DNA from: Roseateles sp. DAIF2
GTDB lineage: Bacteria; Pseudomonadota; Gammaproteobacteria; Burkholderiales; Burkholderiaceae_C
Direction of reading: 5' to 3'
DNA: 64,000 bases
NCBI RefSeq assembly: GCF_015624425.1
Contig: NZ_CP049919.1
Span: forward strand, 2,604,001-2,668,000
Below, in pieces: positions 17,501 through 53,529 of this stretch. Below the pieces are notes generated by a model. That model was not told the origin of the DNA. It worked only from the letters and a program-made list of their open reading frames with translations, and ran no database searches. Both the position numbers and the translations under genes were made by a program. Within the stretch, counting starts at the first letter, position 1. Every line of letters begins with the position of its first letter.

Positions 17501-17514
17501 CTAGGCGGGGCCGA

Positions 17515-19620: not shown

Positions 19621-19626
19621 GCCGAT

Positions 19627-25636: not shown

Positions 25637-25654
25637 GCCGCCCCGCGGGGCGGC
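25637..25654 (-). terminator. Terminator of the biosynthetic operon
   Basis: GCCGCCCCGCGGGGCGGC, a perfect palindrome between the convergent luxR and the last operon gene. On the minus strand it is followed by TGGCTTTT. Probably bidirectional. Confidence 0.75.
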
Positions 25655-25662: not shown

Positions 25663-26676
25663 TCAGGGGATGTGGCAGATCATGTCGGAGTTCGGGCCGC
25701 AGCGGTTGTTCCAGCTCCAGCTCAGGTTGATCTGCTCATGCAGGCGCACGCTGAAGCTGAGCCCGGGCACGCTGATCTGCAGCAGCAGGTGCTCGCCCTG
25801 CACCGAGTCGTAGCCCGGGTCGCCGGAACCCCATTGGGTGTCCGGCATGATCGCCCCCTTGCCCAGCTGCACCGTGATGCTGGCGTTGCTCAGCAGATAG
25901 GCCAGGTTGTTGTGCACATACTGGCCGATCGCGAAGCGCTGGCCGTTGGGCAGCACGATCTCCTTGTCTACCGGCACCAGCCGGGTCAGGCCGGTCAGCT
26001 GCAGATGGTCGCGGCCATAAAACAACGCCTGGTTGCCCTGGCCCAGGGTGCCCTGCAGGCCCTGCAGCACGCCCTGGTCGATCTGGCCCTCGACCTTGCG
26101 GACGATGTAGTTGCCGACCACCGGCAGGATCCAGCTGAGGTTGGAATCGCAGTCGGTCGACGAGCCGGGCTGGCCGTCCAGCAGGATGCTGTTGGTCGGC
26201 ACCTGGCCGTTGCTGGCGTTGTAGCTGGCACCGACCGTGATGTTGGCCAGCGACAGATGGCTGACGCAGTTGAACTTGATGATGCCCCATTTCTTGCCGG
26301 AGAACTGGGTCCAGGCGTCGTAGCGCAGGCCGCTGAGGGTGCTGCGCATCACGCCGCCGCCCTGCGGGCTGATCTGCAGGCGCAGATCGCCGCTGAGCGT
26401 GCCGCTGCGGAAGTTGACGCCGTTGCTGCTGGCGTAGTTGCGCATGAAGTTGTTCAGGCCGTTTTCCATCTGGGCCGGGATGCCGCGCAGCTCGGAGGCG
26501 GTGCGGGCCAGCGGGCCCCAGGCGTTGTGGTCCTCGCTGTAGCTGAGGCTGCCGCCGCCGTACTGCAGGGTGACGGTGTACTGGCCGCTGACCATCTGCG
26601 GGTCCCAGCCGGCCCAGGCACTCTGGGCCGCCAGGACGCCGAGCGCCAGGCCGAGAAGAGGTTTGTTGCATCGCAT
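25663..26676 (-). CDS. Secreted protein of unknown family, last gene of the tambjamine-like operon
   Basis: 337 residues from ATG 26676. Signal peptide MRCNKPLLGLALGVLAAQSAWA, cleavage before GWDPQM. The mature part is rich in Gly, Ser, Asn and Gln with alternating hydrophobic residues (YTVTLQYGGGSLSYSE, LRLQISPQGGGVM, LLLQISVPGLSFSVRL), suggesting a beta-rich periplasmic, outer-membrane or extracellular protein. Few cysteines (CVSH, TDCDSN, NNRCGPNSDMICHI), possibly disulfide-paired. No family recognised. It is the promoter-distal gene of the operon, 56 bp after the acyl-CoA dehydrogenase gene, so it may act in export, storage or delivery of the pigment; that is inference from position only. 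Confidence 0.6.
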   Translation of the reverse strand: MRCNKPLLGLALGVLAAQSAWAGWDPQMVSGQYTVTLQYGGGSLSYSEDHNAWGPLARTASELRGIPAQMENGLNNFMRNYASSNGVNFRSGTLSGDLRLQISPQGGGVMRSTLSGLRYDAWTQFSGKKWGIIKFNCVSHLSLANITVGASYNASNGQVPTNSILLDGQPGSSTDCDSNLSWILPVVGNYIVRKVEGQIDQGVLQGLQGTLGQGNQALFYGRDHLQLTGLTRLVPVDKEIVLPNGQRFAIGQYVHNNLAYLLSNASITVQLGKGAIMPDTQWGSGDPGYDSVQGEHLLLQISVPGLSFSVRLHEQINLSWSWNNRCGPNSDMICHIP

Positions 26677-26732
26677 GTCGTCGACTCGCTTTCTTTGGGG
26701 TGGTGGTCGTGGGGAAGCAAGCGGGGCTGCGC

Positions 26733-28472
26733 CTACCAGGCGCAGGGCAGGGGGCTGAGCGAAAACAGATGCGGATGGCGCAGCGCGGCCAGCGCGCGCT
26801 GCAGCAGGCGCTCGTCGCGCGCCTCGCAGCCGGCGATCTCCAGCTCGGGCAGGGCCTGGCGCAGGTTCTCCAGCAGCAGGTCGGCGTCGAGGCCACCGCC
26901 GGGGCCGCCGTCGCTGTCTTCCTGCTCCAGCTGCCAGGCCAGCGCCAGCGCGCAGGCATGCCAGAGCCGGGTGTAGTCCTGCGCCAGCGCCAGCACGCGG
27001 CAGCTGTCCAGCGCGCAGCGCTCCTCCCACAGGGCCTGCCGCACGGCATCCAGCCAGGCCTGCAGCCGCCGGTCCAGCCGCTGCAGCGTCGCGGCCAGCA
27101 TCGGTTCGTCCGCAGCGGGTTCGTGCCGCGCGCGCAGCTGGCGGTAGGCCAGCATCAGGCTGTCGCGGCCCTGGCTGGCCAGGCGCAGCGCGCCGGCCTC
27201 GGGCCAGCCGCCGGCCCAGGCGGCCGGGCGCAGCAGCTGGCGCGCCAGCGCGCGCGCGGCCTCGGCGTCGTGAGGGCCGCCCGGCTGCTCCAGCCGCTCC
27301 TGCAGATGCCGCAGCTGGCCGGCCAGCAGGGCCAGGTTGACCTGGGTGCTGCCGTCGAACAGGCTCACCACCTGCAGGTCGCGCTGCATCTTCTGGAACA
27401 TCCCCAGCGCATCGCTGGAGCGCAGGTAATGGCGTGCGCCCAGCACCACGGCCAGCTCGCGCGCGATCGCCTCGCATTCCAGCGGCAGCCGGTACTTGCA
27501 GATCGGCGAGATCAGGCTCAGCTCCTGCGGCAGCAGCGCGATCGCGCGGGTACAGGCCTGCGCCAGCAGGTCGGCGCCCAGCAGGCGCGCATAGCTCTGC
27601 GCCAGCTTGGCGCGGGCGGCCGGGATCTGCGCGACCTGCTTGCCGTAGAGCTCGCGCTGCCCGGCGAAGCCCAGCGTCAGGCGCAGCAGGGTGTCGGTGG
27701 CGCCGAGCGAGAAGCCGGCGCAGAGGATGCGCGAGATCTGCAGGGTCTTCAGCACCGTGCCGATCGCGGGCTCGCCGCGCGGCAGCAGGGCCTCGGCGGC
27801 GGCGCAGCGATGGTCCTGCAGCGTGAAGCCGCTGATGTCGGCGCCGCGGATGCCATGGGTGGCGATCTTGGGCAGGGACTGCCAGGCCGGCGCCGGCGCG
27901 TCCGGGCGCGCCAGGCGCAGCAGCACCAGCTCGCTGCGGCCGTCGGCATGGACCTGGCGCGCCAGCACCGTGGCCGAGGCGCCGCGGCTGCCGTTGTTGA
28001 TCAGCCATTTCTCGCCGCTGAGCCGCAGTTCTTCGCCCTCGGCGCGGACCTCGAACTCGGTGGCCAGGATGTCGCTGCCATGGGCGCGCTCGGTCAGCGC
28101 CAGGCAGGCCAGGCCGCCGGCGCGCAGGCTGGCCGCATGGGCGGCGCGCTGCGCCGGGCTGCCGGCCAGCCAGATCGGGATCGAACCGAGCAGGCTCTGG
28201 CCGAAGGCGACCGCGCAGCTGAGATTGCGGCGCGACAGGATGCGCGACAGCAGCAGCACCCGCTCCGGCTCGTCGAGCCGGCCGCCATCGGCCCGCGGCA
28301 CCAGCTGCTCGAACAGGCCCATGCGCTGCAGGGTCAGCAGCTGGGCCTGCGGGAACAGCTCGCGCTCGTCTTCCTGCAGGCTGGCGCCGAAGTGCAGCAG
28401 CGCGTCGCTGTGACGCGGGTCGCCGAGCAGCTGCTCCCATTGTCTGGCCAGGTTCAGGCTGTCGGCATGCAT
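26733..28472 (-). CDS. Acyl-CoA dehydrogenase-family flavoenzyme (TamP-like acyl chain desaturase candidate)
   Basis: 579 residues from ATG 28472, overlapping the PPTase gene by 19 bp. ACAD fold: LSCAVAFGQSLLGSIPIWLAG, LACLALTERAHGSDI (flavin-contact motif), LSGEKWLINNGSRG, HGIRGADISGF, and FQKMQRDLQVVSLFDGSTQVN near the usual C-terminal motif. The extra 180 C-terminal residues are helical, longer than a standard 380-residue ACAD. In the tambjamine YP1 pathway an ACAD (TamP) desaturates the ACP-bound acyl chain before reduction and transamination; this enzyme is the best candidate here because a separate PigA-like ACAD exists in the same operon. Confidence 0.7.
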   Translation of the reverse strand: MHADSLNLARQWEQLLGDPRHSDALLHFGASLQEDERELFPQAQLLTLQRMGLFEQLVPRADGGRLDEPERVLLLSRILSRRNLSCAVAFGQSLLGSIPIWLAGSPAQRAAHAASLRAGGLACLALTERAHGSDILATEFEVRAEGEELRLSGEKWLINNGSRGASATVLARQVHADGRSELVLLRLARPDAPAPAWQSLPKIATHGIRGADISGFTLQDHRCAAAEALLPRGEPAIGTVLKTLQISRILCAGFSLGATDTLLRLTLGFAGQRELYGKQVAQIPAARAKLAQSYARLLGADLLAQACTRAIALLPQELSLISPICKYRLPLECEAIARELAVVLGARHYLRSSDALGMFQKMQRDLQVVSLFDGSTQVNLALLAGQLRHLQERLEQPGGPHDAEAARALARQLLRPAAWAGGWPEAGALRLASQGRDSLMLAYRQLRARHEPAADEPMLAATLQRLDRRLQAWLDAVRQALWEERCALDSCRVLALAQDYTRLWHACALALAWQLEQEDSDGGPGGGLDADLLLENLRQALPELEIAGCEARDERLLQRALAALRHPHLFSLSPLPCAW

Positions 28473-29212
28473 GACGCGCGGCTTTCGTGATCGGGGTTGT
28501 TGTGGAATGAGTTCTGCCGGCAGGCCCGCACCAGCACGCAGGCCTCCTGGGCATCGAGCCGCAGGCGCACCTCCCAGCGGCAGCCCGGCGGCGGTGCCGG
28601 CCAGGCGCCGGCATCGGCCCAGCGCGGCTGGTCGTCGCGGCTCCAGGCGCGCAGCCGCCAGGCGAGGGCCTGGCCGACGAAGCCGCCGCGGCCCTGGCAT
28701 TTGAAGCGCGCCTCCTTCAGGCACCACAGCAGGGTGCGGGCCGCGGCCTCGCCGCAGCCGAAATGCCGCGCCGTCAGCGCCACCTCCGCCGGCGTCAGCA
28801 GCGCCTCCAGGCTGGCGGCGCCCAGCGCCTCGTGGCTCTCGGTATCGATGCCCAGCGGCAGCGCGGCCGCGGCCGCCACCGCGCGGCGCCGGCTGTGGCT
28901 GATGCTCAGGTGCAGCGCATGGCCCGGGGTGCGCGGCCGGCCCGCCGCGTCGGGCTCGATGCGCAGCGCCGCGTGCGGTGGCGGCGCTGGCGCCAGCAGC
29001 GCGCGCAGCGCGGCCTTGGCGCAGAGCCGCCCGGCCAGCCATTCGCGCCGCCGCTTTGGCAGGCCGTAGGCCGACCAGCGCGCCAGCTCCTGCGGGTGCA
29101 GGTGTTGCGCCAGCCAGTCAGCGGCCGGCGCCTCGGGCAGCGCGTCGAGCGGCAGCTCGAACAGGGGCGGGCCGCCCAGGCGCAGCGCCGTCGGCTCAGC
29201 GCTGGCGCTCAA
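28454..29212 (-). CDS. pigL: 4'-phosphopantetheinyl transferase (Sfp/PigL-like)
   Basis: 252 residues from a TTG at 29212 with GGAG 8 nt upstream, inside the pigK-like gene. Sfp-type motifs: LSISHSRRR, LGIDTES (Mg-binding Asp and Glu) and WCLKEARFKCQG (the W-x-x-KEAxxK motif). It transfers phosphopantetheine from CoA to the carrier-protein serines of this cluster: the PigG-like PCP, the ACP of the PigH-like protein and the ACP of the acyl-AMP ligase. The prodigiosin cluster of Serratia carries a PPTase (PigL) in the same role. Confidence 0.88.
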   Translation of the reverse strand: MSASAEPTALRLGGPPLFELPLDALPEAPAADWLAQHLHPQELARWSAYGLPKRRREWLAGRLCAKAALRALLAPAPPPHAALRIEPDAAGRPRTPGHALHLSISHSRRRAVAAAAALPLGIDTESHEALGAASLEALLTPAEVALTARHFGCGEAAARTLLWCLKEARFKCQGRGGFVGQALAWRLRAWSRDDQPRWADAGAWPAPPPGCRWEVRLRLDAQEACVLVRACRQNSFHNNPDHESRASCMPTA

Positions 29213-29510
29213 AGCCGGGCTCCAGCAGGTGGCCGCCGAACTGGTCGCCCAGCTCGGCCATCTGGCTGAAGCGCTGCACCAGGGTCTGGAACAGCGGCGT
29301 GCGCATGTCCAGGTCGAAAGCCTCGGCGCTGCTGACCTCGACGATCTCGAAGAAGTCCAGCCCGTCGCCGCCCGGGCATTCGAAGACCTGGAAGCGCAGC
29401 ACGCTGGGCAGGTCCTGGCAGGCCCGGTAGTCGACCTCGCGGACCCAGCGCATGAAGGGCGCGCGCTGCTCGGGGGACTTCAGGCGGATGCGGTCGATCA
29501 GGGTCAGCAT
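29196..29510 (-). CDS. pigK: PigK/HapK-like (REDY-family) small protein
   Basis: 104 residues starting MLTLIDRIRLKSPEQRAPFMRWVREVDY, with VLRFQVFECP and DFFEIVEVSSAEAFD, a ferredoxin-like alpha/beta fold of the dimeric-barrel kind. It fits the small REDY/HapK family found only in prodiginine and tambjamine clusters, whose exact role is unsettled (suggested chaperone or helper of bipyrrole synthesis). It overlaps the PigC-like gene by 7 bp and pigL by 17 bp. The family call is from memory of the motif and context. Confidence 0.65.
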   Translation of the reverse strand: MLTLIDRIRLKSPEQRAPFMRWVREVDYRACQDLPSVLRFQVFECPGGDGLDFFEIVEVSSAEAFDLDMRTPLFQTLVQRFSQMAELGDQFGGHLLEPGFERQR

Positions 29511-32293
29511 GGGGCGGGTTCCTTGGTGTCGGTGGCGGGCTCGATCCGCACGGTGCCGCGCTCGCCGTCCACGGTCAGCCAGTCGCCGGTGCGCACGCGG
29601 CTGCTGGCATGGCGGGTGTTGACGACCGAGGGGATGCCGAACTCGCGCGCGACGATGGAGCTGTGCGAGAGCATCGAGCCGATGTCGGTGACGACGCCGC
29701 CGGCCAGCGCGAAGATCGGCGTCCAGGAGGCGTCGGTGAAGGTGGTGACGATGATCTCGCCGGCCTGCAGCTCGGCCGCCTGGCGGCTCAGGTCGTGGAT
29801 CACGCGGGCGCGGCCGCGCACCACGCCATGCGAGGTGCCCAGGCCGGCCAGGCCGTCGCCGCCGGCAGCGGCGGGCGGTGCCGGCTGCGGCGTGCGGGTG
29901 GGCGGCGCGCCGATGAAGGTCAGGGCCGGCTCGCCGGCGCGCAGCCAGGCCTGCTGGCGCCGTCGGCGTGCCTCGATCAAGGGGCGGGCGAAGGCCTGCT
30001 CGGCGCTCAGCTCGCCCTCCAGATAGCCGCGCAGCTGCTCGAAGTCCAGCCAGGCCATCTCGTCCATGTCATGCAGCAGGCCCTGGGCCACCAGGCGCCG
30101 CGTCAGCTCGACCACCACCCGGCGCACCAGCCAGATCGAGGTGATCATGCTCATGCGCGTGTCCTCGCGCAGCCGGCTGCAGCCGCAGTACAGCCGCATC
30201 ACCTGGCGCAGCAGCCAGCGCCGGCGCGGCGTCAGCTCGCGCAGCAGCGCCTCGGTGTCCTGGCCGCGCTGCTGGCCGCTGGCGGCCAACCGCTGGTCGA
30301 CGCCGAAGCCCTGCTGCAGATAGGTCTTGACCATCTGGAACACATAGCAGGGATCGTCGACCCAGCGCGGATGGGTCAGCTCCATCTCCTCGCGTCCGCG
30401 CACGCCGTTGTCGCGCATGAAGTCGGCATAGGCGCCGGTCAGGAAGCGCCGGCCCTCGGGCAGGGCCAACAGGGCACCATGCACCTGTTCCGCGGGCGTG
30501 CGCTGCAGCAGCTCGCGCAGGCCCGGGTGGGCGCACAGGGCCTGGGTCAGGGCCCAGAGGTCGCGCGCCGACTCGACGGTGCGCAGGTTCGACATGTCGC
30601 CCTTCAGCCGGTTCTGCAGATGCAGGCCGCGGCCCGGTAGCCAGGCGCCGCACAGCTCTTCCAGCAGGCCGTAGAGCCCGAAGGCGTTGATGTAGAAGGG
30701 CAGGTAGCCGATGTGCATCGCGCGGAAATAGTCCAGCGCATGGCGCAGCTCGTCGCGCAGGCCCGCCTGGTCCAGCGCGCCGAGGTCCTGGGCGCAGGCC
30801 CGCTCGTACTCGCGCCGGCGTGATTCGATCATCCGGCGCGCGCGGCGCCGCGCGCCAACCAGCTCGCCCAGGGTCTTGCCGAACCAGTAGAGCTGGCTGT
30901 GCAGGCGCTCCAGCCCGTTGCGGCCATGGCGCAGCCCGTAGGGGTTGCGGTAGTCGCTCAGCGACACCTCCTCGCTGGTGAAGCGGTGCAGGAAGGGCGT
31001 CTGGTCCAGGCCGGGCGGCGTCTGCGACAGCAGGTAGGCGGTGTAGGCCACGTTGAGATAGACATGGCCGCGGTGGTAGCCCATGTACTCGTCGGGATCG
31101 CCCAGGTCCAGCAGGCCGATGCCCTTGCCGCATTCGCGGTGCACGCGGTACTGGTAGTAGCGCGCGAAGCTGATGCCCAGCGGACTCATGCGGCCGGTGA
31201 AGATCTCGCCGATGTCCATGCGCGACCACAGGATGCGCGCGTCGCGCTGCGCATCGGGGGCGCCCTGGTGCGGGCCCTCGGGTTCGTCCGGCAGCTCGTC
31301 CAGGGTGGTGATCGGGCGGCTCTGCAGCAGCCACAGCCGCCCGGCCGCATCGAGCGCCCATTCGATGTCCTGCGGGCTGCCCTGCAGGCGGGTGCAGCGC
31401 TGCAGCAGCTCGCCCACCGCATGCCGCGCCGCCTCGGACAGCACCGCCCGCTCGCGCGCCGCGGCCGGCAGCGGCTGCAGCTGGGCCTCGCGCCGCTCGG
31501 GCGACCACAGCAGGGCCGCGGGCTTGTGCAGGATGCGCTGCTCGACCTGGCGCAGGTCGCCGGTCGCCAGCAGATAGGCGTCGCTGACCACGCGGCCCGA
31601 GACCAGGCCCTCGCCCAGGCCCACGCAGGCCTCGATCAAGAGGCGCGGCGCGCCCGGCTGCAGCGGGTCGCGCGCGAAGGCCACGCCGGCCGCGGTGTCG
31701 AAGCCGGCCGGCACCATGCGCTGCACCACCACCGCCATGCGCGCGCCGGCCAGCGCGCCGCCATGCTGGCGCCGGTAGGCCAGCGCGGCCGGGTTGAACA
31801 GCGAGGCCCAGCAGTCGCGCAGCCGCTGCAGCAGCTCGGGCAGGCCCTGCACCTGCAGGAAGCTGTCATGCTGGCCGGCGAAGGAATGGGCCTGGCCGTC
31901 CTCGTCGCAGGCCGAGGAGCGCACCGCCACCGCGCCGGCGCCGAGCGCCTCGTAGGCCAGCGTGATCGCCGCGATCGCCCGGCTCGGCAACTGCACCGCG
32001 CGCAGCTGCTCGGCCATGCGGGCCCAGCGCGCCGCGTCGCCGCTGGCCAGCGCCTCGTCCAGCGCCAGCTGCTGCAATGTTGCGACCTCGTCCAGGCAGG
32101 CGGCCTCGATGCAGAAGCCGTCGGGCACCGGCAGGCCCTGCTGGTGCAGACGCGCCAGGCTGGCGCCCTTGCCGCCCAGCTGCCGCGCATCCGGCTCGGC
32201 GCAGTCGGCGAAGCGGCGCGCCCAGACCGGGGCGGCGTTCTTGTCGCTGCCCAGGCGCTCGGGCGCCGGGTCCAGATTCAGTTCCATCGTCAT
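29504..32293 (-). CDS. pigC: PEP-synthase-like condensing enzyme (PigC/TamQ type)
   Basis: 929 residues, ATG 32293 behind AAGGAG. N-terminal PPDK/PEP-synthase ATP-binding domain (QLGGKGASLARLHQQGLPVPDGF, AVRSSACDEDGQAHSFAGQ, RMVPAGFDTAAGVAFARDP), a long middle region (about 350-780), and a C-terminal PEP-utilising swivel domain with the histidine in GSMLSHSSIVAREFGIP. In prodigiosin and tambjamine pathways this fold does not make PEP; it uses ATP to condense MBC with a pyrrole (PigC) or an alkyl amine (TamQ). Its presence beside MBC genes is the strongest single indicator of the product class. Confidence 0.85.
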   Translation of the reverse strand: MTMELNLDPAPERLGSDKNAAPVWARRFADCAEPDARQLGGKGASLARLHQQGLPVPDGFCIEAACLDEVATLQQLALDEALASGDAARWARMAEQLRAVQLPSRAIAAITLAYEALGAGAVAVRSSACDEDGQAHSFAGQHDSFLQVQGLPELLQRLRDCWASLFNPAALAYRRQHGGALAGARMAVVVQRMVPAGFDTAAGVAFARDPLQPGAPRLLIEACVGLGEGLVSGRVVSDAYLLATGDLRQVEQRILHKPAALLWSPERREAQLQPLPAAARERAVLSEAARHAVGELLQRCTRLQGSPQDIEWALDAAGRLWLLQSRPITTLDELPDEPEGPHQGAPDAQRDARILWSRMDIGEIFTGRMSPLGISFARYYQYRVHRECGKGIGLLDLGDPDEYMGYHRGHVYLNVAYTAYLLSQTPPGLDQTPFLHRFTSEEVSLSDYRNPYGLRHGRNGLERLHSQLYWFGKTLGELVGARRRARRMIESRRREYERACAQDLGALDQAGLRDELRHALDYFRAMHIGYLPFYINAFGLYGLLEELCGAWLPGRGLHLQNRLKGDMSNLRTVESARDLWALTQALCAHPGLRELLQRTPAEQVHGALLALPEGRRFLTGAYADFMRDNGVRGREEMELTHPRWVDDPCYVFQMVKTYLQQGFGVDQRLAASGQQRGQDTEALLRELTPRRRWLLRQVMRLYCGCSRLREDTRMSMITSIWLVRRVVVELTRRLVAQGLLHDMDEMAWLDFEQLRGYLEGELSAEQAFARPLIEARRRRQQAWLRAGEPALTFIGAPPTRTPQPAPPAAAGGDGLAGLGTSHGVVRGRARVIHDLSRQAAELQAGEIIVTTFTDASWTPIFALAGGVVTDIGSMLSHSSIVAREFGIPSVVNTRHASSRVRTGDWLTVDGERGTVRIEPATDTKEPAPC

Positions 32294-32330
32294 GAGGACT
32301 CCTTCGATGCATGCAGGGGGAACGGCCCGC

Positions 32331-33359
32331 TCAGGGCCGTTCGGCCAGAAAGCCGTAATAGCTCTCGCCGGGCAGCAGGCGGCGATGCCGGATATCGCGC
32401 CAGCCGGCGTCGCGCAGCCGCGCCAGCAGCGCGTCGCGCTCGGGCAGGCCGGCGCTGCGCTCGGACAGGCTCCACCACAGGTGCAGCGCGGCGATCGCCG
32501 GGCTGCCGCCGCGGCAGCTGCTGGTCATCAGGAGGCGCCCGCCCGGCGCCAGCAGGGCCGCGACCCGGTCCAGCAGGGCCTCGCGCTGCGCGGCGTCGAA
32601 GTAGTAGAAGTTGTTGTGCAGGGTGATCAGGTCGTAGCCCGGCGTGCCGGCGCCCGGCAGCGGCAGCTCGAACAGGTCGGCCTGGCCGATCGACACCTTG
32701 GACAGCAGGCCCTGCTCCTGCAGATGCCGGCGCGCGCAGACCACCACATCGGCCTGCAGGTCGATCGCCTCCAGCTGCAGCTCCGGCCAGCGCCGCAGCA
32801 TGTAGGCGAGGTAATGGCCGGCGCCGCAGCCGACCTCCAGCACGCGGCGCGGCCGGGCCTGCTCGAAGGCCCAGTCGATCGCCTCCTCGACGAAGGGCTC
32901 GAGGATGCGCGAGGAGCGCGCGATCAGCTCGCCGTCCTGGTCGGCCAGGGTGTAGGGCCGCTGCTCGCGCAGCCGGGTCGGGGCCTGCAGCAGGGCGTCG
33001 AAGTGGTAGCGCGTCACCTCGGTGAACAGGGCGGCGGTGACCTCGTTGCGCGGCCGTGCCAGCAGGCGCGAGAGCCGGCCCTTCAGGTGGTAGCGCTCGC
33101 GCTTGAGCTCCAGCTCGCCGATGCGCACGCCGCAGTCCAGCCAGGCCAGCAGCGCATGGCGCCGCTCCGGCTCGATCTGCAGGGCCTGGGCGATCGCCAG
33201 GCCGTCGCGCGGCGCCTCGTGCAGCAGGCCCAGCACGCCGGCCTGGCCGGCCGCGGTGGCGAAGGCGCTGCGGTACAGGCTCTGCGTCTCGCCGCCCAGG
33301 CGCAGAAAGGACAGGATGCTCTTTTCGAACAGCAGTTTTCGCAAGGTCGCGAGCTTCAT
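32331..33359 (-). CDS. pigF: SAM-dependent methyltransferase (PigF-like O-methyltransferase)
   Basis: 342 residues. An N-terminal dimerisation and winged-helix region (about 1-130) is followed by a class I methyltransferase fold: VLEVGCGAGHYLAYML (SAM motif I, about 170-185), LQLEAIDLQADVV, YDLITLHNNFYYF and LLAPGGRLLMTSS. In MBC biosynthesis PigF methylates the hydroxyl of the bipyrrole (HBC to MBC). It lies directly between the PigC-like and transport genes. A PigN homologue, which assists PigF in Serratia, is not recognisable in the window. Confidence 0.8.
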   Translation of the reverse strand: MKLATLRKLLFEKSILSFLRLGGETQSLYRSAFATAAGQAGVLGLLHEAPRDGLAIAQALQIEPERRHALLAWLDCGVRIGELELKRERYHLKGRLSRLLARPRNEVTAALFTEVTRYHFDALLQAPTRLREQRPYTLADQDGELIARSSRILEPFVEEAIDWAFEQARPRRVLEVGCGAGHYLAYMLRRWPELQLEAIDLQADVVVCARRHLQEQGLLSKVSIGQADLFELPLPGAGTPGYDLITLHNNFYYFDAAQREALLDRVAALLAPGGRLLMTSSCRGGSPAIAALHLWWSLSERSAGLPERDALLARLRDAGWRDIRHRRLLPGESYYGFLAERP

Positions 33360-33375
33360 CGGGTCTCCCTCGTGA

Positions 33376-36536: not shown

Positions 36537-36548
36537 CGGACGGATCCT

Positions 36549-37973: not shown

Positions 37974-37980
37974 CGGGGCC

Positions 37981-38811: not shown

Positions 38812-38815
38812 GAGT

Positions 38816-39937: not shown

Positions 39938-39946
39938 GCCCGGCCC

Positions 39947-42751: not shown

Positions 42752-42752
42752 C

Positions 42753-46256: not shown

Positions 46257-46264
46257 CGTCGTCC

Positions 46265-47842
46265 TCAGTCCGATGCGTTGCCGATCAGTTGCTCGCGCAG
46301 GCGGCGCAGGTCGGTCTTGCCGTTGGCGTTCTTCGGCAGCCCGGCCAGCGCCACCAGCTGCTGCGGCACCATATAGGCCGGCAGCAGGGTGGCGCAATGC
46401 TGCTTCAGCGCCAGCGAGCCGGGCACCAGCGCGCCCTCGCGCGGCACATAGGCGGCCAGCAGGCGCACGCCGCCGTTGGCCGGCATGCCCAGCACCGCGA
46501 CCTCGGCCAGCTGGGGATGGCGGGCCAGCGCGGCCTCGATCTCGCCCAGCTCGACCCGGTAGCCGTTGACCTTCAGCATGCGGTCCTGGCGGCCGTGGTA
46601 CTGCAGCCGGCCGGCGCGCCATGAGCCCTGGTCGCCGGTGGCATGGCAGCCGCGCCGATGGTTCGCGCTGTTGGCATCGTCGGGGCGCCGCCAGTAGCCG
46701 GGGGTGACGCAGTCGCCGGCCACCCAGATCTCGCCCAACTCGCCCTCGGCCTCGACGCGCCGGCCCTGCTCGTCCTGCAGCCAGACCTCGGCGCCGGCGA
46801 TCGGCAGGCCGATCGGCACCGGCTCCGGGCTGTCCAGCTCGGCCGGCTCGACCGCATGCCAGAGGCAGACATTGGTCTCGGTCGGGCCGTAGAAGTTGTA
46901 GAGCCCGCAGCCCTGCGGCAGGGCCGCGGCCAGGCGCTGCAGCAGCGGCTTGGGCATCACCTCGCCGGCGAAGACCACGCGGCGCAGCGCGCAGCGCGGC
47001 CGCATCGCCTCCAGCACGCCGCTGCGGATCAGCAGGCCGTACAGCGAGGGCACCGCGTACATCACGCTGATGCGCTGCTGCTCGATCAGCGCGCCCAGGC
47101 CGGCCGGATGGTGCAGCTCCGGCTCGCTGGTGACATAGAGGCTGGCGCCGGCCTGCAGGCCCGCGAACAGGTCGAAGGTGCTGAGGTCGAAATTGAAGCT
47201 GGCCAGGTTCAGCAGCCGGTCGCTGGCGTCCAGCGCCAGGGTGCGGGCCGACCAGGCGGCGAAGTTGAGCAGATTGCGCTGGCTCAGCTGCACGCCCTTG
47301 GGCTGCCCGGTGGAGCCGGAGGTGTAGAGGATCGCGGCGATCTCGTCGAGCGCGACGGGCTGCTCGCTCAGCGGTGCCGCGGCGCGCAGTCGGTCCAGCG
47401 CGGACGGCTGCCATTGCGCGGCATCGAAGCCGGGCGCTGCGGCCTCGTCGCTCAGCACCAGCAGGCGCGGGCCGTCGGCGGGCTGGGGCTGGGCCAGCCA
47501 GAGGCGCGCATGGGCGGCGTCCAGCACCAGCAGGCGCGGGCCGGCATCGGCCACGATGGCGCGCACGCGCTCCGCCGGCTGCGCACCGTCCAGCGGCAGG
47601 TAGCGGGCGCCGGCGAACAGGGCGGCCAGCACGCATTGGGCGTACAGCGGGCCCTTGTCCATCCAGATCGCCACGGCCTGGCCGGCGCAATCGGCCATCG
47701 GGCCCTGGCTGGCGCGGGCCACCCAGTCGCGGCACTGGCCATAGCTCAGCGCCTGCCCGCCGCCCAGCAGCAGCGGGGCCGCGTCGGGCGGGGCCAGCAG
47801 GGCCTGGTGCACGCCGGCGGCGACGCTGCCCGTGGGCTTCAT
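46265..47842 (-). CDS. pigI: L-prolyl-AMP ligase (PigI-like adenylation enzyme)
   Basis: 525 residues from ATG 47842, overlapping the pigH stop by 4 bp. A stand-alone ANL adenylating enzyme: AILYTSGSTGQPKGVQLS (A3), FNFDLSTFDLF, NFYGPTETNVCLW (A5), GELGEIWVAGDCVTPGYW, HATGDQGSWRAGRLQYHGRQDRMLKVNGYRVELGEIE (A7-A8), and the catalytic Lys in NANGKTDLRRL (A10). By homology it activates proline and loads it on the PigG-like carrier. The size and motif spacing match NRPS-type amino-acid ligases rather than fatty-acyl ligases. Confidence 0.85.
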   Translation of the reverse strand: MKPTGSVAAGVHQALLAPPDAAPLLLGGGQALSYGQCRDWVARASQGPMADCAGQAVAIWMDKGPLYAQCVLAALFAGARYLPLDGAQPAERVRAIVADAGPRLLVLDAAHARLWLAQPQPADGPRLLVLSDEAAAPGFDAAQWQPSALDRLRAAAPLSEQPVALDEIAAILYTSGSTGQPKGVQLSQRNLLNFAAWSARTLALDASDRLLNLASFNFDLSTFDLFAGLQAGASLYVTSEPELHHPAGLGALIEQQRISVMYAVPSLYGLLIRSGVLEAMRPRCALRRVVFAGEVMPKPLLQRLAAALPQGCGLYNFYGPTETNVCLWHAVEPAELDSPEPVPIGLPIAGAEVWLQDEQGRRVEAEGELGEIWVAGDCVTPGYWRRPDDANSANHRRGCHATGDQGSWRAGRLQYHGRQDRMLKVNGYRVELGEIEAALARHPQLAEVAVLGMPANGGVRLLAAYVPREGALVPGSLALKQHCATLLPAYMVPQQLVALAGLPKNANGKTDLRRLREQLIGNASD

Positions 47843-49374
47843 GCGGCGGCCCGCGCCGGCTGCAGCACCAGACCGTTCTCGCGCGCCGCGTCGAGCAGGA
47901 TCTGGATCGCCTGGTTCAGGTCCTCGGCGGTGTGCGACTCCAGCACGCTGATGCGCAGCCGCGCATCGCCGACCGCGACGCCGGGGAACACCACGGTCTG
48001 GCAGTACATGCCGCGCCGGCGCAGCGAACGGCCCATGTTCATCGCCAGCGCCTCGTCGCCCAGGCGCACCGGGATGATCGCGCTCTGCGAGTCCTCGGTG
48101 TCGAAGCCCAGCTCGTCGAGCGCCTTCTTCAGGTAGCCGATATTGCTCCACAGCCGGGCCAGGCGCTGCGGCTCGGCGGCCATCAGGTCCAGCGAGGCCA
48201 GCAGGCCGGCGACCACCGGCGCGGGGATGGTGGCCGCGAACACATAGCTGTTGGCGTAGAAGCGCAGGTAGTCGATCACCTCGGCGTCGCCGACGACGAA
48301 GCCGCCCTGGCCGCCGAGCGCCTTGCTCATCGTGCCGACCTCCAGATCGACCTGGCCCTTCATGTCGAAATGCTCGGTGGTGCCTGAGCCGGTCAGGCCC
48401 AGCACGCCGGTGCTGTGCGCATCGTCGATCAGCAGCCGGGCCTGGTAGCGGCGCGCCAGCCGCGACAGTTCGGGCAGCCTGACGATGTCGCCATGCATGC
48501 TGAACACGCCGTCGGCCACGATCAGGCGGCCGCCGCCCTCGTCCTCGCTGCGCGCCAGCAGCGCTTCCAGCGCCTGCATGTCGTTGTGAGGATACAGGCG
48601 GCGCGCGGCCCCGGCCAGCTTGCAGCCGTCCTGGATGCTCATGTGGTTGTAGACATCGCCGATCACCTGGTCGCCCGGGCCGACCAGGGCGGCGATGCTG
48701 CCCAGGTTGGCCGAGTAGCCGGAGGGGAAGACGATGCAGTCCTCGCGGCCCTTGAGCTGGGCCAGGCGGCGCTCGAGCTCGCGGTGCAGCTCGGTGGTGC
48801 CGGCGATCAGACGGCTGCCGGTGTTGGTGGCGCCGTACTCGCGGGTGGCCTGGATGATGGCCTCCAGCACGCGCTCGTCGTTGGCCAGGCCCAGGTAGTT
48901 GTTGGAGGCGAACAGCAGAAACTCGCGGTCGCGGCCCTCATGCGTGTCGTGGATCAGCGCGCGGTTGCTGCTGCGCCCGCGCGAGGCCATGCCGTACCAG
49001 AAATGCCCCTGCGCGGCGCGCTCGCGGTGAAAGCGCGCGAAGCGGCGGGTCTTGGCGAACACATCGGTGTCGCTGCCGTTGGCGACGAAGTCGCGCATGG
49101 TCTGCAGCGGCGCGGCCGACGCGGCCACGGCGGCCGGCGTGGCGCCGAAGCGCACGCACAGGCTGTCCAGGGTGTCGGAGTCGTTGATCTCGACCCGCAC
49201 GCTGGTCTGGAACAGCTGGTTCAGCTCGCTGACGATGGCCGCCAGCATGATGGAGTCGATGCCCAGGTCCTCCTGCAGCAGGGACTGGGGGCGCAGCGTC
49301 TCGTCGTCGTACTGGGAATGCTTCTTGACGACGGCGCGCACGGCGGCGACGGGATCTTGTGGGATGGCGCTCAT
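47839..49374 (-). CDS. pigH: ACP-alpha-oxoamine synthase fusion (PigH-like, HBM synthase)
   Basis: 511 residues. Residues about 5-85 are an acyl carrier protein with the phosphopantetheine serine in LGIDSIMLAAIV (about 39-50). From about 105 on is a PLP-dependent alpha-oxoamine synthase: LLFASNNYLGLAND, VFPSGYSANLGSIAAL, IDDAHSTGVLG and the PLP lysine in TMSKALGGQGG. In prodigiosin synthesis PigH condenses the pyrrolyl-diketide with serine to give 4-hydroxy-2,2'-bipyrrole-5-methanol. Serratia PigH has two tandem ACP domains; only one is present here. Start ATG 49374, 21 bp after the Rieske gene. Confidence 0.87.
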   Translation of the reverse strand: MSAIPQDPVAAVRAVVKKHSQYDDETLRPQSLLQEDLGIDSIMLAAIVSELNQLFQTSVRVEINDSDTLDSLCVRFGATPAAVAASAAPLQTMRDFVANGSDTDVFAKTRRFARFHRERAAQGHFWYGMASRGRSSNRALIHDTHEGRDREFLLFASNNYLGLANDERVLEAIIQATREYGATNTGSRLIAGTTELHRELERRLAQLKGREDCIVFPSGYSANLGSIAALVGPGDQVIGDVYNHMSIQDGCKLAGAARRLYPHNDMQALEALLARSEDEGGGRLIVADGVFSMHGDIVRLPELSRLARRYQARLLIDDAHSTGVLGLTGSGTTEHFDMKGQVDLEVGTMSKALGGQGGFVVGDAEVIDYLRFYANSYVFAATIPAPVVAGLLASLDLMAAEPQRLARLWSNIGYLKKALDELGFDTEDSQSAIIPVRLGDEALAMNMGRSLRRRGMYCQTVVFPGVAVGDARLRISVLESHTAEDLNQAIQILLDAARENGLVLQPARAAA

Positions 49375-49395
49375 GATCGGTGCTCGGTGGGGCGT

Positions 49396-50508
49396 TCAGG
49401 CGGCCTGATGGCTGCGCGGCACGATGTGGATGGGCTGCTCGGGCGGGAGCGCGTCGGTCGGGGTCTCAAGCGCCTGGCGCTGGGCCGCCAGGGCCTCCTG
49501 GGTCAGCTGCTCGCGCAGCCGCAGGTAGTAGGCGTTGACCTTGTCGACCGAGATCAGCTTGTTGGCCGTCAGGCTGGAGATGCGGGGCTCCTGGCCCTTC
49601 AGCGCGGCCATGTCCTTGGACTGCTGGATGAAGCGCTCCATCCGGCACATCAGCCAGGGGCGCACGCGACGCCAGCCCGGGATGGGCAGGGGCTTGATCA
49701 TCGGGAACAGCAGGTCGCGCTTCGGTTCCTTGTAGCAGATGCACAGCCAGCAGTTGTCGTCGTCGATCGGCGTCGCGATCAGATAGACGTCGAACACGTC
49801 GTTGCGGATCTGGACCATATTGGGCATCTGCACGTCGACGCCGATGCGCCAGCCGCGCGTCCAGGGCAGGCGCGCGCGCAGGGTCTCCTCGGCCGTGCGC
49901 TCGTCGTCGGGGCGCAGGATGAAGTCGCTGCGGATCAGCGTGCCCTCCAGCTGGCAGCGGAAGTCGTCGACGCGGCCGCCCTTGGGGTCCCAGATGTTCA
50001 GCGCCGAGCCCTTGTGCACGAAGGGCACGTGGTAGACCTCGCAGACGCTCTCCACATAGCGGGTGTAATGGGTCGGCGCATGCCAGGCGTAGCGCGAGCT
50101 GAAGCCCTCGTACTCGGCGAACTCCTTGAACATCGGCACCTCGGGCAGCGCCTCGGGCACGCGCTCGCCGGTCCAGAACCAGATCAGCCCATGCTGTTCG
50201 CGCGTCGTGTAGGAGGCGACGCACATATGGCGCGGCGGCACGCCCTGCTTGCCCAGCACCGGCATGTGCACGCAGCGGCCGCTGGCGTCGTACTGGAAGC
50301 CGTGATAGGGGCAGGCGATCAGGTCGCCATGCTGCTTGCCATGGCTCAGCGGCACGCCCTTGTGGGCGCAGCGGTCGTCCAGGCAGACGATCTGGCCGCG
50401 GGTGTCGCGGTAGAGCACCAGCTTCTTGTTGAAGCGGCGGATGCCCACCGGTTTCTTGCTCTTGACGTCCTCGCTGCGCAGGACGGCATACCACTGGTTC
50501 GGAATCAT
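49396..50508 (-). CDS. Rieske non-heme iron oxygenase (RedG/McpG-like)
   Basis: 370 residues. The Rieske [2Fe-2S] motif is CAHKGVPLSH...CPYHGF (C-x-H-x16-C-x2-H, about residues 46-68). The mononuclear iron site is at VCEVYHVPFVHKG (two histidines, about 158-167). In Streptomyces prodiginine pathways Rieske enzymes (RedG, McpG) carry out oxidative C-H carbocyclisation of the alkyl chain; the same role is inferred here from position in the MBC gene block. No ferredoxin or reductase gene lies in the operon. The ATG overlaps the upstream carrier-protein stop by 4 bp. Confidence 0.82.
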   Translation of the reverse strand: MIPNQWYAVLRSEDVKSKKPVGIRRFNKKLVLYRDTRGQIVCLDDRCAHKGVPLSHGKQHGDLIACPYHGFQYDASGRCVHMPVLGKQGVPPRHMCVASYTTREQHGLIWFWTGERVPEALPEVPMFKEFAEYEGFSSRYAWHAPTHYTRYVESVCEVYHVPFVHKGSALNIWDPKGGRVDDFRCQLEGTLIRSDFILRPDDERTAEETLRARLPWTRGWRIGVDVQMPNMVQIRNDVFDVYLIATPIDDDNCWLCICYKEPKRDLLFPMIKPLPIPGWRRVRPWLMCRMERFIQQSKDMAALKGQEPRISSLTANKLISVDKVNAYYLRLREQLTQEALAAQRQALETPTDALPPEQPIHIVPRSHQAA

Positions 50509-50774
50509 GCGATCTTCTCCAAGGGGTTGAGGCGCATCACCAGCGCTTCCAGCTGCGCGACGCTGGCGAAATGCTGGGGATGGATGTCGCCGATCGGGAT
50601 CTGCACGCCGAATTCCTGGCGCACGAAGTCGACGACGTCGAACAGCGCGGCGGAATCGAGGATGTTGAGTTCGAGCAGGCGGGTGTCGCGCTGCACGCGG
50701 CTGCCGTCACCGAGGAAGGCCTCGGCGATGAAGGCACACAGGCGTTGCGAGAAAAAGCTGTCGACCATGGGCAT
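50505..50774 (-). CDS. pigG: Peptidyl carrier protein (PigG-like)
   Basis: 89 residues from ATG 50774, or 87 from the ATG at 50768; AAGGA lies 4 or 10 nt upstream. One carrier domain with serine in LNILDSAALFDVVDFVRQE, closely following the PigG pattern. It should carry prolyl and then pyrrolyl groups made by the PigI- and PigA-like enzymes. Overlaps the Rieske gene by 4 bp. Confidence 0.82.
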   Translation of the reverse strand: MPMVDSFFSQRLCAFIAEAFLGDGSRVQRDTRLLELNILDSAALFDVVDFVRQEFGVQIPIGDIHPQHFASVAQLEALVMRLNPLEKIA

Positions 50775-50784
50775 GCATTCCTTC

Positions 50785-52890
50785 TCAGCGGAGCGCGCGG
50801 GCCGACCGGGCCTCGCGCCAGATTTCCCGCGCCAGCAGCGCGGGGCTGTTGTGCCGGTAGAAGGCATCGGGCGAGAGCAGCAGGCCATGGCCGCGGTCCA
50901 GCTCGTCCAGCAGCTCGATCGCCGCGACCGAGTCCATCGCCAGGCTGGCGAAGCTGTCCTCGGCGCGCAGCCGGCCCAGCTCGCTGCGGGTGGCGACGGC
51001 GATGCGCTGCAGCAGCCATTGGCAGACCTCGGCCTCGCTGTCCAGGCGCAGCGGCTGCGCGGCCGCGGCGGGCGCGGCGCCTTGCTCCTCGGCCGCGTCG
51101 TCCAGCCGCAGATAGACCGGCAGCTCGCCCTGCAGGAACTCCTGCTTCAGCGCCAGGCGCTGCAGCTTGCCCGACGAGGTGGTGCGCACCGTCTTGCGCG
51201 GGATGAACAGCAGGGTCTCGATGCGCAGGCCGTATTTCTCGCCCAGCCGGGCGTTGATGCGCCGGCGCAGGTCCTGATGGTCGAGCGCGCCGCGCGGCAC
51301 CTCCAGCGCCAGCGCCACCTGCTCGGTCTCGCCGTCGCCATGCTGGAAGGCCACCGCGCGGCAGTTGTGCAGCTCGGGGCAGGCCAGCAGGGCCTCATGC
51401 TCCAGATCCTGCGGGAAGTAGTTGGCCCCGCGCACGATCAGGATCTCCTTCATGCGCCCGGTGATGAACAGTTCGCCGGCCTCGACGAAGCCGATGTCGC
51501 CGGTGCGCAGCCAGCCGCTGCGCCCGTCCAGCATCTGGCCGAACTGCTGCGCGCTGCGCGGCTCGTCCTGCCAGTAGCCATGGGTGACGCTGGGGCCGCG
51601 CACCCAGACCTCGCCGAGCTCGCGCTCGCCGCGGGCCAGCTGCAGGGTGGGCTCGACGATGCGCAGCTCGAGGCTGGCATGCGGGCGCCCGCAGCTGACC
51701 ACCGCCTGGGTGCCGGGGCGCTGCGGCTCGGCCGGCTGCCACTGGCCGCGCGCCAGCGCGCGGGCGTCCAGGTGGCAGCGCCGGAAGGCCTCGCCCAGCG
51801 GCTTGCCGCTGACCATCAGGGTGGTCTCGGCCATGCCGTAGCAGGGGTACAGCGCCTCGGCGCGGAAGCCGCTCGGCGCGAAGCGCCGCGCGAACTCGTC
51901 CAGCGTGCGCGCGCTGATCGGCTCGGCGCCGCAGAAGGCGATGCGCCAGGCGCTCAGGTCCAGCTCGCCGAGGTCGCGGTCGCGGATGTTGTTGACGCAG
52001 AGCTGGAACGCGAAGTTGGGGCCGCCGCTGCTGACGCCGCCGCTGCAGCCGGCGCCGAACTCACTGACCGCCTGCAGCCAGCGGTAGGGGCTGCGCACCA
52101 GCAGGCTGGTGGGCATCAGCAGGCTGGCGAAGCCGGCATGCACCGGCTGCAGGATGCCGCCGACCAGGCCCATGTCGTGATAGGGCGGCAGCCAGATCAC
52201 CGAGCGGCTCTGGCCCTTGCGGTGCCCGAAGCAGTCCTGGATCAGCTGCGAGTTCTCGACCAGGTTGCGTTGGCTCAGCATCACGCCCTTGGGGCGGCCG
52301 GTCGAGCCCGAGGTGTACTGCAGCATCGCCAGCGCCTCGGGATCGGGGCGCAGGCCCGCCAGGCCCGCGGCCGGCGCGGCGTCGAACTCCTCGACCGCCA
52401 GCCAGCCGGTGCGCGCCAGTTCCGGGTCGCGGCGCAGCGCGGCCAACTCGCCGTCCAGGCTGCCGCGGCGCGCCAGCACCAGCGCGTTGTCCAGTTCCTT
52501 GAGCACCAGGCGCAGGCGCTCGGCCTGCAGCGGGTTGCGCGGCGGGAAGGTCGGCACCGCGACCACCCCGGCCGCCATGCAGGCGAAGAAGGCGGCGACG
52601 AACTGGCGGCCCTGCGGCAGCACCAGCACCAGGCGCGGCGGGATCGGCCCGCCGCATTGGCGCAGCGCCGCCGCATAGCGGCCGACCCAGTCGGCCAGCT
52701 GCGCGTGGCTCAGCTGTTCATCGGCATCGTCCTCGGTCTGCCAGAAGCGGTAGACCAGGGCATCGGGCTGCTCGAAGGCATTGCGGCGCAGCGCGTCGGC
52801 AAAGCTCCACGAGGTGCCTGCCGGCCGGGCCGGGAGCGCCGGGTCCGGCTCGGCGGGCATGGTGGCGATCAGAGGGGCGGCGACATCCAT
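50785..52890 (-). CDS. tamT: Fatty-acyl-AMP ligase with C-terminal ACP (TamT-like)
   Basis: 701 residues. ANL domain of the FAAL class: LQYTSGSTGRPKGVMLSQ, WLPPYHDMGLVGGIL (FAAL signature), YGMAETTLMVSG, RTGDIGF and KILIVRG-like KEILIVRGANYFPQ. The C-terminal region (about 625-690) is a carrier domain with serine in LAMDSVAAIELLDELD. It would activate a free fatty acid as acyl-AMP and load its own ACP, giving the substrate for the ACAD and the TamH-like fusion. First biosynthetic gene after luxI (27 bp). The start may be at 52890 or 52860; neither has a clear ribosome site. Confidence 0.86.
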   Translation of the reverse strand: MDVAAPLIATMPAEPDPALPARPAGTSWSFADALRRNAFEQPDALVYRFWQTEDDADEQLSHAQLADWVGRYAAALRQCGGPIPPRLVLVLPQGRQFVAAFFACMAAGVVAVPTFPPRNPLQAERLRLVLKELDNALVLARRGSLDGELAALRRDPELARTGWLAVEEFDAAPAAGLAGLRPDPEALAMLQYTSGSTGRPKGVMLSQRNLVENSQLIQDCFGHRKGQSRSVIWLPPYHDMGLVGGILQPVHAGFASLLMPTSLLVRSPYRWLQAVSEFGAGCSGGVSSGGPNFAFQLCVNNIRDRDLGELDLSAWRIAFCGAEPISARTLDEFARRFAPSGFRAEALYPCYGMAETTLMVSGKPLGEAFRRCHLDARALARGQWQPAEPQRPGTQAVVSCGRPHASLELRIVEPTLQLARGERELGEVWVRGPSVTHGYWQDEPRSAQQFGQMLDGRSGWLRTGDIGFVEAGELFITGRMKEILIVRGANYFPQDLEHEALLACPELHNCRAVAFQHGDGETEQVALALEVPRGALDHQDLRRRINARLGEKYGLRIETLLFIPRKTVRTTSSGKLQRLALKQEFLQGELPVYLRLDDAAEEQGAAPAAAAQPLRLDSEAEVCQWLLQRIAVATRSELGRLRAEDSFASLAMDSVAAIELLDELDRGHGLLLSPDAFYRHNSPALLAREIWREARSARALR

Positions 52891-52917
52891 GGCGGTGGCG
52901 GATGAAGAGGCGGGCGA

Positions 52918-53529
52918 TCAGGCCGCGACCGCGGCCTGTGCCGGCTGGACCTGCACCTGGCGCGGCCGGCACTCGATCTGGCAGGCGAACAGGCGCCGGC
53001 CGCCGACGGTCTGCGGCGGCGCCAGACGGCCGGCGCTGAAGCCGGCCATCGTCAGCAGCCGCTCGACGCCGACCGGCGAAACCGTGACCAGGCGGCTCAC
53101 GCCCTGGGCGCTGGCATGGTCGATCGCGGCCTGCAGCAGCGCGATGGCCTGGTCGGATGAGAACTGGCGCAGCGCCGGGTTGCCGCCCGTCGCTTGGGCT
53201 TCGCTATCGGGGCTGAGCGTGACGAAGCGCGACAGCTCCCAGACCGCCGCATCGGACGGCAGGCCGCCGGGGGCCAGCATCGGGAACACCTCGCTGAGCA
53301 GGTAGGGCCGCGTCGTCGGCAGCAGGCGCGCGCAGCCCGAAAGACGGCCCTCGCGGTCGCGCAGCAGCACGTAGTGGGCGTCGGCATGATCGAACTGATC
53401 CAGCTCGCGCTGCGGCGCGCAGTTCAGGGTCCAGCCCAGGGTTTCGACGAAGACGCGGTAGCGGTAGGCCGCCAGCTCGGCCAGCAGCTGCTGACCCATT
53501 TCCGCATGTGCGATCGCGGTGATATTCAT
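52918..53529 (-). CDS. luxI: LuxI-family acyl-homoserine-lactone synthase
   Basis: 203 residues from ATG 53529 behind GGGAGG. LuxI motifs: AAYRYRVFVETLGW (Arg, Phe, Trp of the N-terminal core), ELDQFDHADAHYVLL (conserved Asp pair), GCARLLPTTRPYLLSEVFP (Arg) and VWELSRFVT (Glu, Arg). It makes an acyl-homoserine lactone from SAM and acyl-ACP. It is the first gene of the operon running to 25663, with a lux-type box 51 bp upstream, so AHL synthesis and pigment synthesis are co-induced. Acyl chain length cannot be predicted by eye. Confidence 0.93.
   Translation of the reverse strand: MNITAIAHAEMGQQLLAELAAYRYRVFVETLGWTLNCAPQRELDQFDHADAHYVLLRDREGRLSGCARLLPTTRPYLLSEVFPMLAPGGLPSDAAVWELSRFVTLSPDSEAQATGGNPALRQFSSDQAIALLQAAIDHASAQGVSRLVTVSPVGVERLLTMAGFSAGRLAPPQTVGGRRLFACQIECRPRQVQVQPAQAAVAA

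Follow-up and report, generated by a model that had tools for sequence, protein, structure and literature searches.

The window analysed here, a 64-kb stretch of the single-contig 6.01-Mb genome of Roseateles sp. DAIF2 (NZ_CP049919.1, positions 2,604,001 to 2,668,000; GC content 70.3%), was found to contain a cluster of tam genes for a predicted tambjamine pathway, headed by the acyl-homoserine-lactone synthase gene luxI. From position 53529 to 25663 there are 21 genes, all on the minus strand, starting with an ATG at 53529 and ending with a stop at 25663. The gaps were 56 bp or less, seven overlaps were present, and each open reading frame (ORF) had one terminal stop. The third-codon-position GC of the 21 ORFs was 0.87-0.97, and the same reading frames were chosen along the stretch by GC-frame analysis. 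These checks bore out the run of minus-strand genes with small gaps and overlaps described in the original prediction, which had also placed all 21 genes in one operon. This held for 20 of them, luxI-tamA through tamT, which are one unit and would be read as a single transcript. The luxR gene was counted with the unit, although it lies beyond the 25663-53529 interval. The placement in the operon is probably wrong for the remaining gene, orf337, which had no Pfam or NCBIfam match and no counterpart in the related tam stretches examined, being seen only in the cluster of the present genome. Because it is absent from those stretches and lies 56 bp behind tamT, orf337 was rejected as a pathway gene and is probably an unrelated insertion. 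The host had been described as a high-GC betaproteobacterium, in agreement with the GC content and with the 16S rRNA gene, which matched those of Paucibacter sp. DJ2R-2 (98.0% identity) and of another member of the same genus (98.4%).

Gene roles were assigned after the tam/pig table of PMC6667630 and the relevant parts of the TamA and TamH papers (PMC5939613, PMC9594044), and are listed in Table 1. The operon carries a complete gene set for 4-methoxy-2,2'-bipyrrole-5-carbaldehyde (MBC), with counterparts of PigA, F, G, H, I, J, L and M. The Pig pathway counterparts claimed earlier (PigA, C, F, G, H, I, J and M) were all recovered by family scans, as were counterparts of PigK and PigL; the NCBIfam scan of TamF was made on the longer open frame 43929-47735. 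All parts of a fatty-amine tail route, TamA (acyl-AMP ligase and carrier domain), TamH (aminotransferase and reductase) and TamT, were present as well. As deduced from the sequence, the chemical steps in the present strain would run as follows. TamE, TamB, TamG, TamF, TamD, TamJ and TamP together with TamS would build the bipyrrole aldehyde MBC, perhaps with the involvement of TamR. TamA would load a fatty acid onto its own carrier domain, TamT would desaturate the loaded chain, TamH would reduce and transaminate the acyl chain to give a fatty amine, and TamQ would join MBC with this amine.

Table 1. Features of the tam cluster and its flanks (window coordinates, in operon order)
Feature	Position	Strand	Assignment	Evidence or remark
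mgtC-like gene	53654-54403		cluster flank	
lux-type box	53580..53597	-	CCTACC-N6-GATAGG	50 nt before luxI
luxI	52918..53529	-	acyl-homoserine-lactone synthase, first gene of operon	Pfam Autoind_synth 1.5e-22; 67% in DJ2R-2
tamA	50785..52890	-	fatty acyl-AMP ligase fused to acyl carrier protein	Pfam AMP-binding and PP-binding
tamB/pigG	50505..50774	-	free carrier protein	Pfam PP-binding slightly below cut-off; DS motif; colinear
tamC	49396..50508	-	Rieske oxygenase, RedG/McpG-like; proposed oxidative macrocyclisation	Pfam Rieske; tree; conserved ligands
tamD/pigH	47839..49374	-	carrier domain fused to oxoamine synthase	Pfam PP-binding and Aminotran_1_2
tamE/pigI	46265..47842	-	L-prolyl-AMP ligase	best PDB match L-proline--[L-prolyl-carrier protein] ligase 7thn
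tamF/pigJ	43929..46256	-	ketosynthase-type, active-site Cys	NCBIfam PigJ 296 bits; EAACASS motif
tamG/pigA	42753..43928	-	L-prolyl-peptidyl carrier protein (PCP) dehydrogenase	NCBIfam RedW/PigA; PDB relatives include L-prolyl-PCP dehydrogenases
tamH	39947..42751	-	aminotransferase fused to thioester reductase; acyl carrier thioester to fatty amine (proposed)	Pfam
tamJ/pigM	38816..39937	-	nitroreductase-like oxidase of MBC synthesis	NCBIfam Acg-family FMN oxidoreductase 8e-26, below cut-off; colinear
tamK	37981..38811	-	periplasmic LolA-like carrier	Pfam LolA_like 5e-28
tamL	36549..37973	-	LolC/E-like permease	Pfam FtsX, MacB_PCD; NCBIfam lolCE below cut-off
tamM	35265..36536	-	LolC/E-like permease	Pfam FtsX, MacB_PCD; NCBIfam lolCE below cut-off
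tamN	34520..35272	-	LolD-like ATP-binding cassette ATPase	NCBIfam LolD 225 bits, cut-off 308
tamO	33376..34533	-	predicted 18-stranded outer-membrane beta-barrel	predicted fold
tamP/pigF	32331..33359	-	bipyrrole O-methyltransferase	Pfam methyltransferase; colinear
tamQ	29504..32293	-	PigC/RedH-type ligase, MBC and amine	NCBIfam RedH 1017 bits, PigC 854 bits
tamR/pigK	29196..29510	-	HapK/RedY-like	Pfam HapK 7e-23
tamS/pigL	28454..29212	-	phosphopantetheinyl transferase, TTG start	Pfam ACPS, 4PPT_N
tamT	26733..28472	-	acyl-CoA-dehydrogenase-like; proposed fatty-chain desaturation	Pfam
orf337	25663..26676	-	predicted secreted, 337 amino acids	
Terminator-like hairpin (intrinsic)	25637..25654	-	between operon end and luxR	1 found, 0.1 expected
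luxR	24915..25628	+	autoinducer-binding transcription regulator, convergent with operon	Pfam Autoind_bind and GerE
Perfect 18-bp palindrome CCTGTCAGGCCTGACAGG	24803..24820	.	possible regulator site	before luxR
SMC/AAA-type ATPase gene	21941-24760		cluster flank	

When genome contigs were scanned with a profile of the TamH alignment, 84 relatives were found and 80 were kept. A colinear MBC gene set lay beside tamH in 10 of the 80: those of Paucibacter sp. DJ2R-2, Chitinimonas prasina, C. viridis, Cupriavidus basilensis, a Burkholderiaceae assembly and five Pseudoalteromonas. The tamA-tamQ order of the window was the same in all ten, eight loci having all 16 genes and two being cut to eight by contig ends. 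The tamT gene was also found in all ten genomes (68% identity in DJ2R-2 and 38-53% in the other nine), and tamR and tamS adjoined it as far as the stretches reach. In the homologue search, the window TamH was 47% identical to the P. tunicata row and 46% to the P. citrea row. G708, G711, G714 and C885 were invariant in 27 of 27 aligned rows, and the window TamH retains both the nucleotide-binding Gly and the Cys that PMC9594044 names for the P. tunicata enzyme. A few of the other 70 had matches to individual tam proteins without the set. Loci such as L022, L066, L027, L043 and L065, in which tamA, D, E, F or G had weak matches (23-35%) and the full set was absent, were not counted as tam; such matches were taken as generic family resemblance, tamA, tamT and tamH of L022 being closer (37-45%).

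Because the tamA-tamQ order matches that of the ten other loci, the cluster is read as a tambjamine cluster, and its product is almost certainly a member of this known family of antimicrobial pigments. The gene-for-gene colinearity and the presence of TamA, TamH and TamT orthologues support the MBC plus fatty-amine pathway of the original prediction. Its call of the class was right, and its text lacked the Rieske enzyme TamC, luxI and luxR, and the envelope export set, which are treated below.

The luxI gene adjoins tamA in four of the ten comparison genomes, namely DJ2R-2, the two Chitinimonas and C. basilensis, or four of the five betaproteobacterial loci versus none of the five Pseudoalteromonas. 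The luxR product was 73% identical to that encoded at the equivalent place in DJ2R-2. In the window, as in DJ2R-2 and C. basilensis, luxR lies beyond tamT, whereas in Chitinimonas it lies upstream of luxI. A box of the form CYACC-N6-GRTAGK was located 50-73 nt before the luxI start in all five luxI-bearing clusters, the distances being counted from starts chosen by the analyst. The window had a single occurrence, and in the 317,669 bases of related loci searched, some of which overlap, every occurrence preceded luxI. The perfect palindrome before luxR is unlike the luxI box; it was the sole copy in the window within three mismatches (0.03 expected) and was not found before luxR in DJ2R-2. According to PMC10772561, antiSMASH gave 'hserlactone, prodigiosin' for P. 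aquatile DH15, which points to a luxI-tam pairing there too. With luxI heading the run and luxR located past tamT, joint induction of signal and pigment is probable, and control of the operon by LuxI/LuxR, acting through the candidate box at 53580-53597, seems fairly likely.

Several points weigh against such control. The box pattern was derived from the same sequences that were then searched, which makes its occurrence at luxI, though not its absence from other places, a matter of construction. A classical palindromic lux box with fixed start triplets was not found before luxI. The sequence CCTACC-N6-GGTAGG gave four window matches with two or fewer mismatches, versus 0.95 expected; the one at luxI (one mismatch) was the best, and the other three, elsewhere, were weaker. 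The Burkholderiaceae tam genome had no luxI match, even though its contig continues for approximately 10 kb beyond tamA; not every betaproteobacterial cluster therefore has the pairing. The odds of LuxI/LuxR control were left unchanged by this exception, the pairing being retained in four other clusters of three genera. No published report of a luxI-tam unit or of a tambjamine export line was found in a search of papers available without subscription; a paper matching both tambjamine and quorum sensing dealt with pigment in other Pseudoalteromonas species.

Five genes in the middle of the operon, tamK to tamO, encode a candidate export line. Their order was kept in all eight tam loci that span them, from both beta- and gammaproteobacteria. 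The bit scores were below the equivalog cut-offs, and TamLMN and TamK are therefore considered to be related to the lipoprotein Lol system but not part of it. The predicted fold of TamO was a closed transmembrane barrel of 18 strands. The TamO profile had no match among PDB sequences, and the PDB search with TamK gave weak matches only. In the proposed route, TamLMN would extract the tambjamine from the inner membrane, TamK would carry it through the periplasm and TamO would place the hydrophobic product in or beyond the outer membrane, from which vesicles could then take it to target algae. Judged from families and the fold model, there is about an even chance that TamK-TamO exports the pigment. 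The direction of transport and the cargo are read from fold and family alone, and the TamO fold was equally similar to the exporter AlgE and to uptake channels (OprD/Occ, chitoporin). This resemblance and the kinship to the Lol system would also suit a self-protection or lipoprotein-sorting set that merely travels with the cluster and exports no product, an explanation against which the odds are moderately tilted, since the five genes stay in order and mid-operon in loci of two proteobacterial classes. The wider proposal, that in TamK-TamO a complete Lol-type export line has been adapted to a small hydrophobic alkaloid, with operon and exporter tied to LuxI/LuxR in most of the betaproteobacterial clusters seen, is put forward tentatively, at slightly less than even odds.

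TamC was the most conserved Tam protein in the comparison with the five Pseudoalteromonas loci (67-69% identity, against 26-60% for the other 15). Its Rieske and mononuclear-iron ligands, C47, H49, C66, H69, H160 and H165, were invariant in 14 of 14 aligned rows. Among the matches listed, the nearest named relative was a Chitinimonas arctica row, followed by Streptomyces Rieske proteins at 32-37%, one of them from S. longispororuber, a species that makes metacycloprodigiosin through McpG. The Streptomyces rows carry no RedG, McpG or MarG name and were matched to these enzymes by organism. In a tree of 36 rows rooted at the midpoint (25 chosen among the 120 listed homologues, the ten tam loci and the window), 11 tamC rows and seven Streptomyces rows formed separate clades within one branch (support 100/99), apart from eight other Rieske rows. 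Prodiginine cyclisation has been ascribed to the oxygenases RedG (PMC6667630), McpG and MarG. By analogy, TamC would act after TamQ and join the alkyl chain to the bipyrrole, which would yield a macrocyclic tambjamine.

Macrocyclic tambjamines have been reported from three genera that have tam loci: MYP1 from Pseudoalteromonas citrea (PMC8471394), paucibactin A from Paucibacter aquatile DH15 (by a title cited in PMC10772561) and tambjamine LY2, termed a 'pyrrole-core macrolactam', from Chitinimonas LY03 (PMC12951363). The tam loci examined in Pseudoalteromonas, Paucibacter and Chitinimonas all carry tamC. The present cluster therefore belongs to a known kind, macrocyclic products having already been reported in Paucibacter and Chitinimonas. 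As TamC is placed near the Streptomyces RedG/McpG-type clade, a macrocyclic product resembling paucibactin A, MYP1 or tambjamine LY2 is considered quite probable. The macrocycle-producing strains differ from the strains whose tam loci were compared, which counts against this assignment, as does P. tunicata, which has tamC and whose YP1 is described as MBC linked to an open-chain dodecenyl amine (PMC6667630); tamC alone is thus no proof of a ring. Taken further, the P. tunicata case would favour a linear, YP1-like tambjamine in the present strain, with TamC inactive or doing another reaction such as hydroxylation. That outcome is unlikely in view of the conservation of TamC, its intact set of Rieske and His ligands, its common branch with prodiginine-cyclase-type enzymes and the macrocycles known from Paucibacter and Chitinimonas (PMC10772561, PMC12951363).

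The original prediction had named, as its refutation, profile searches that put proteins of the cluster outside the Pig/Red/Tam clades; such searches, made here together with calibrators, did not do so. Against NCBIfam RedH, the window TamQ scored close to that of C. basilensis (1046 bits) and above a truncated P. caenipelagi TamQ (879 bits), versus 302 bits for the phosphoenolpyruvate (PEP)-synthase-like protein of a non-tam locus. The NCBIfam scores of TamG, TamF and TamH were close to those in P. caenipelagi or DJ2R-2, so that all four proteins scored like those of other tam clusters. Two results speak against the tambjamine assignment: the PigC, RedH, PigA, RedW, PigJ and PigE scores were all below the curated cut-offs, as were those of the tam calibrators, and the best named family for TamH was PigE, of the prodigiosin 2-methyl-3-n-amyl-pyrrole (MAP) branch, as it was for P. 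caenipelagi TamH. The MAP (PigD/PigB) and undecylpyrrole (RedL/RedK) branches had been described as missing, and no family so named was among the Pfam and NCBIfam matches listed for the 21 proteins, the NCBIfam lists for tamQ, tamP, tamN, tamH, tamA and tamE being those of the best 25 matches and no check having been made that NCBIfam has models for PigB, RedL and RedK. A whole-genome search for PigD gave no match, nor did it in any control genome. A prodiginine, that is, a red tripyrrole, was rejected as very improbable because neither branch was among the families listed, and although antiSMASH labels such Paucibacter regions 'prodigiosin' (PMC10772561), MBC genes are common to pig and red clusters and TamH falls nearest PigE, none of the genes for TamA, TamH and TamT is missing, and their order follows that of tam clusters. 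The reading as a whole, a tambjamine operon that is also a quorum-sensing operon, in which LuxI/LuxR would switch on signal and pigment together, with ring closure by TamC probable and TamK-TamO as candidate exporter, is given a probability of roughly 0.85.

TamH was rare in the genomes sampled. At E <= 1e-100, it was found in one of 299 genomes sampled from the family and one of three from the genus, the sole positive being the genome of the window itself. Four of 399 genomes sampled from the order were positive, the window's own and three in one genus (55-56% identity). The ATPase and mgtC-like genes that flank the cluster are 28.9 kb apart in the window and 2.5 kb apart in the same-genus genome G075, where a 618-codon ORF (L127 1860-3716) stands in the place of tam. 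Another genome of the genus, G180, has the ATPase gene and no mgtC match, and in DJ2R-2 both flanking genes are on contigs other than the tam contig. From the flanks in G075 and DJ2R-2, the cluster has evidently been gained, lost or moved. A DDE transposase gene lies at 60051-61664 on the plus strand, approximately 6.5 kb upstream of the operon. Between 54922 and 59044, also on the plus strand, are genes for a TonB-dependent receptor, a PepSY-TM protein and a small 2Fe-2S ferredoxin-like protein, perhaps an iron-uptake set.

Tam-like modules without MBC genes were also observed. Locus L025 of Undibacterium umbellatum (10001-21121) encodes a TamH-like fusion (34%) followed by PEP-synthase-like and CarS-like proteins, CDP-alcohol transferases, a phosphatidylserine decarboxylase and a second PEP-synthase-like protein (TamQ-like, 28%). 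TamH-like and TamQ-like genes at similar spacing were present in L027 (Massilia atriviolacea) and L034 (U. pigrum). Loci of this type, whose families were checked in L025 alone, seem to encode a phospholipid pathway of an unusual sort that has tail and ligase enzymes in common with tam. In L040, L064, L047, L052, L055, L067, L083 and L085 (Bacteriovoracaceae, Halobacteriovorax and unclassified), TamH-like (28-29%), TamQ-like and LolC/E-LolD-LolA-like genes were found together, the TamL-like gene being absent from the group in L083. L040, the sole one checked of its kind, also encodes P450, UbiA-like and CarS-like proteins. Locus L022 (10001-16805), from a Polyangiaceae metagenome-assembled genome, has tamH-tamT-tamA at 45, 40 and 37% identity without the MBC set, which looks like a free-standing fatty-(en)amine module whose product is perhaps joined to another scaffold.

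These results add a complete tam cluster from a genome assembled as one contig. A group of TamH homologues including a Paucibacter and two Chitinimonas was called unclear in role in a 2022 paper (PMC9594044); TamH homologues of a Paucibacter and two Chitinimonas are now placed in complete tambjamine operons. The analysis also suggests that the 'prodigiosin' labels on Paucibacter genomes in PMC10772561 denote tambjamine clusters, as checked in DJ2R-2 only, which is taken as the DJ2R of that paper. The closest species of freshwater algicidal isolates listed in PMC10033687 include Paucibacter aquatile and Chitinimonas viridis. Algicidal tambjamines gain named candidates for an enzyme (TamC), a switch (luxI/luxR and one box) and an export set (TamK-TamO). 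The parts of the cluster least described so far are the operon organisation with luxI in first place and the Lol-type line presumed to act in export.

The closest known systems include the tam cluster of Paucibacter sp. DJ2R-2, a strain of the genus to which P. aquatile DH15, the source of paucibactin A (PMC10772561), belongs. It has the same genes in the same order, with luxI before tamA and luxR after tamT, and 56-84% identity from tamA to tamQ; it differs in its chromosomal site and in lacking orf337 and the palindrome before luxR. The clusters of Chitinimonas prasina and C. viridis, in the genus from which tambjamine LY2 comes, have the same gene order, luxI before tamA and the same box as the window. 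The five Pseudoalteromonas loci compared (tambjamine YP1/MYP1) share the 16-gene order tamA-tamQ followed by tamR, tamS and tamT, with proteins 26-69% identical to those of the window from tamA to tamQ. In contrast, they have no luxI beside tam: two of the five genomes had no luxI match and three had a weak match on another contig, and no luxR was found in the tam flanking stretches, which cover both sides only in P. caenipelagi. The Streptomyces rows matched to the RedG/McpG/MarG cyclases share a tree branch with TamC but form a separate clade, and the substrate of these cyclases is a tripyrrole. The lipoprotein Lol system resembles TamK-TamO in its LolD-like ATPase, two LolC/E-like permeases and LolA-like carrier, whereas TamK-TamO is set in an alkaloid operon, has the added beta-barrel TamO, has no LolB-like gene in the run and presumably carries a small molecule as its cargo.

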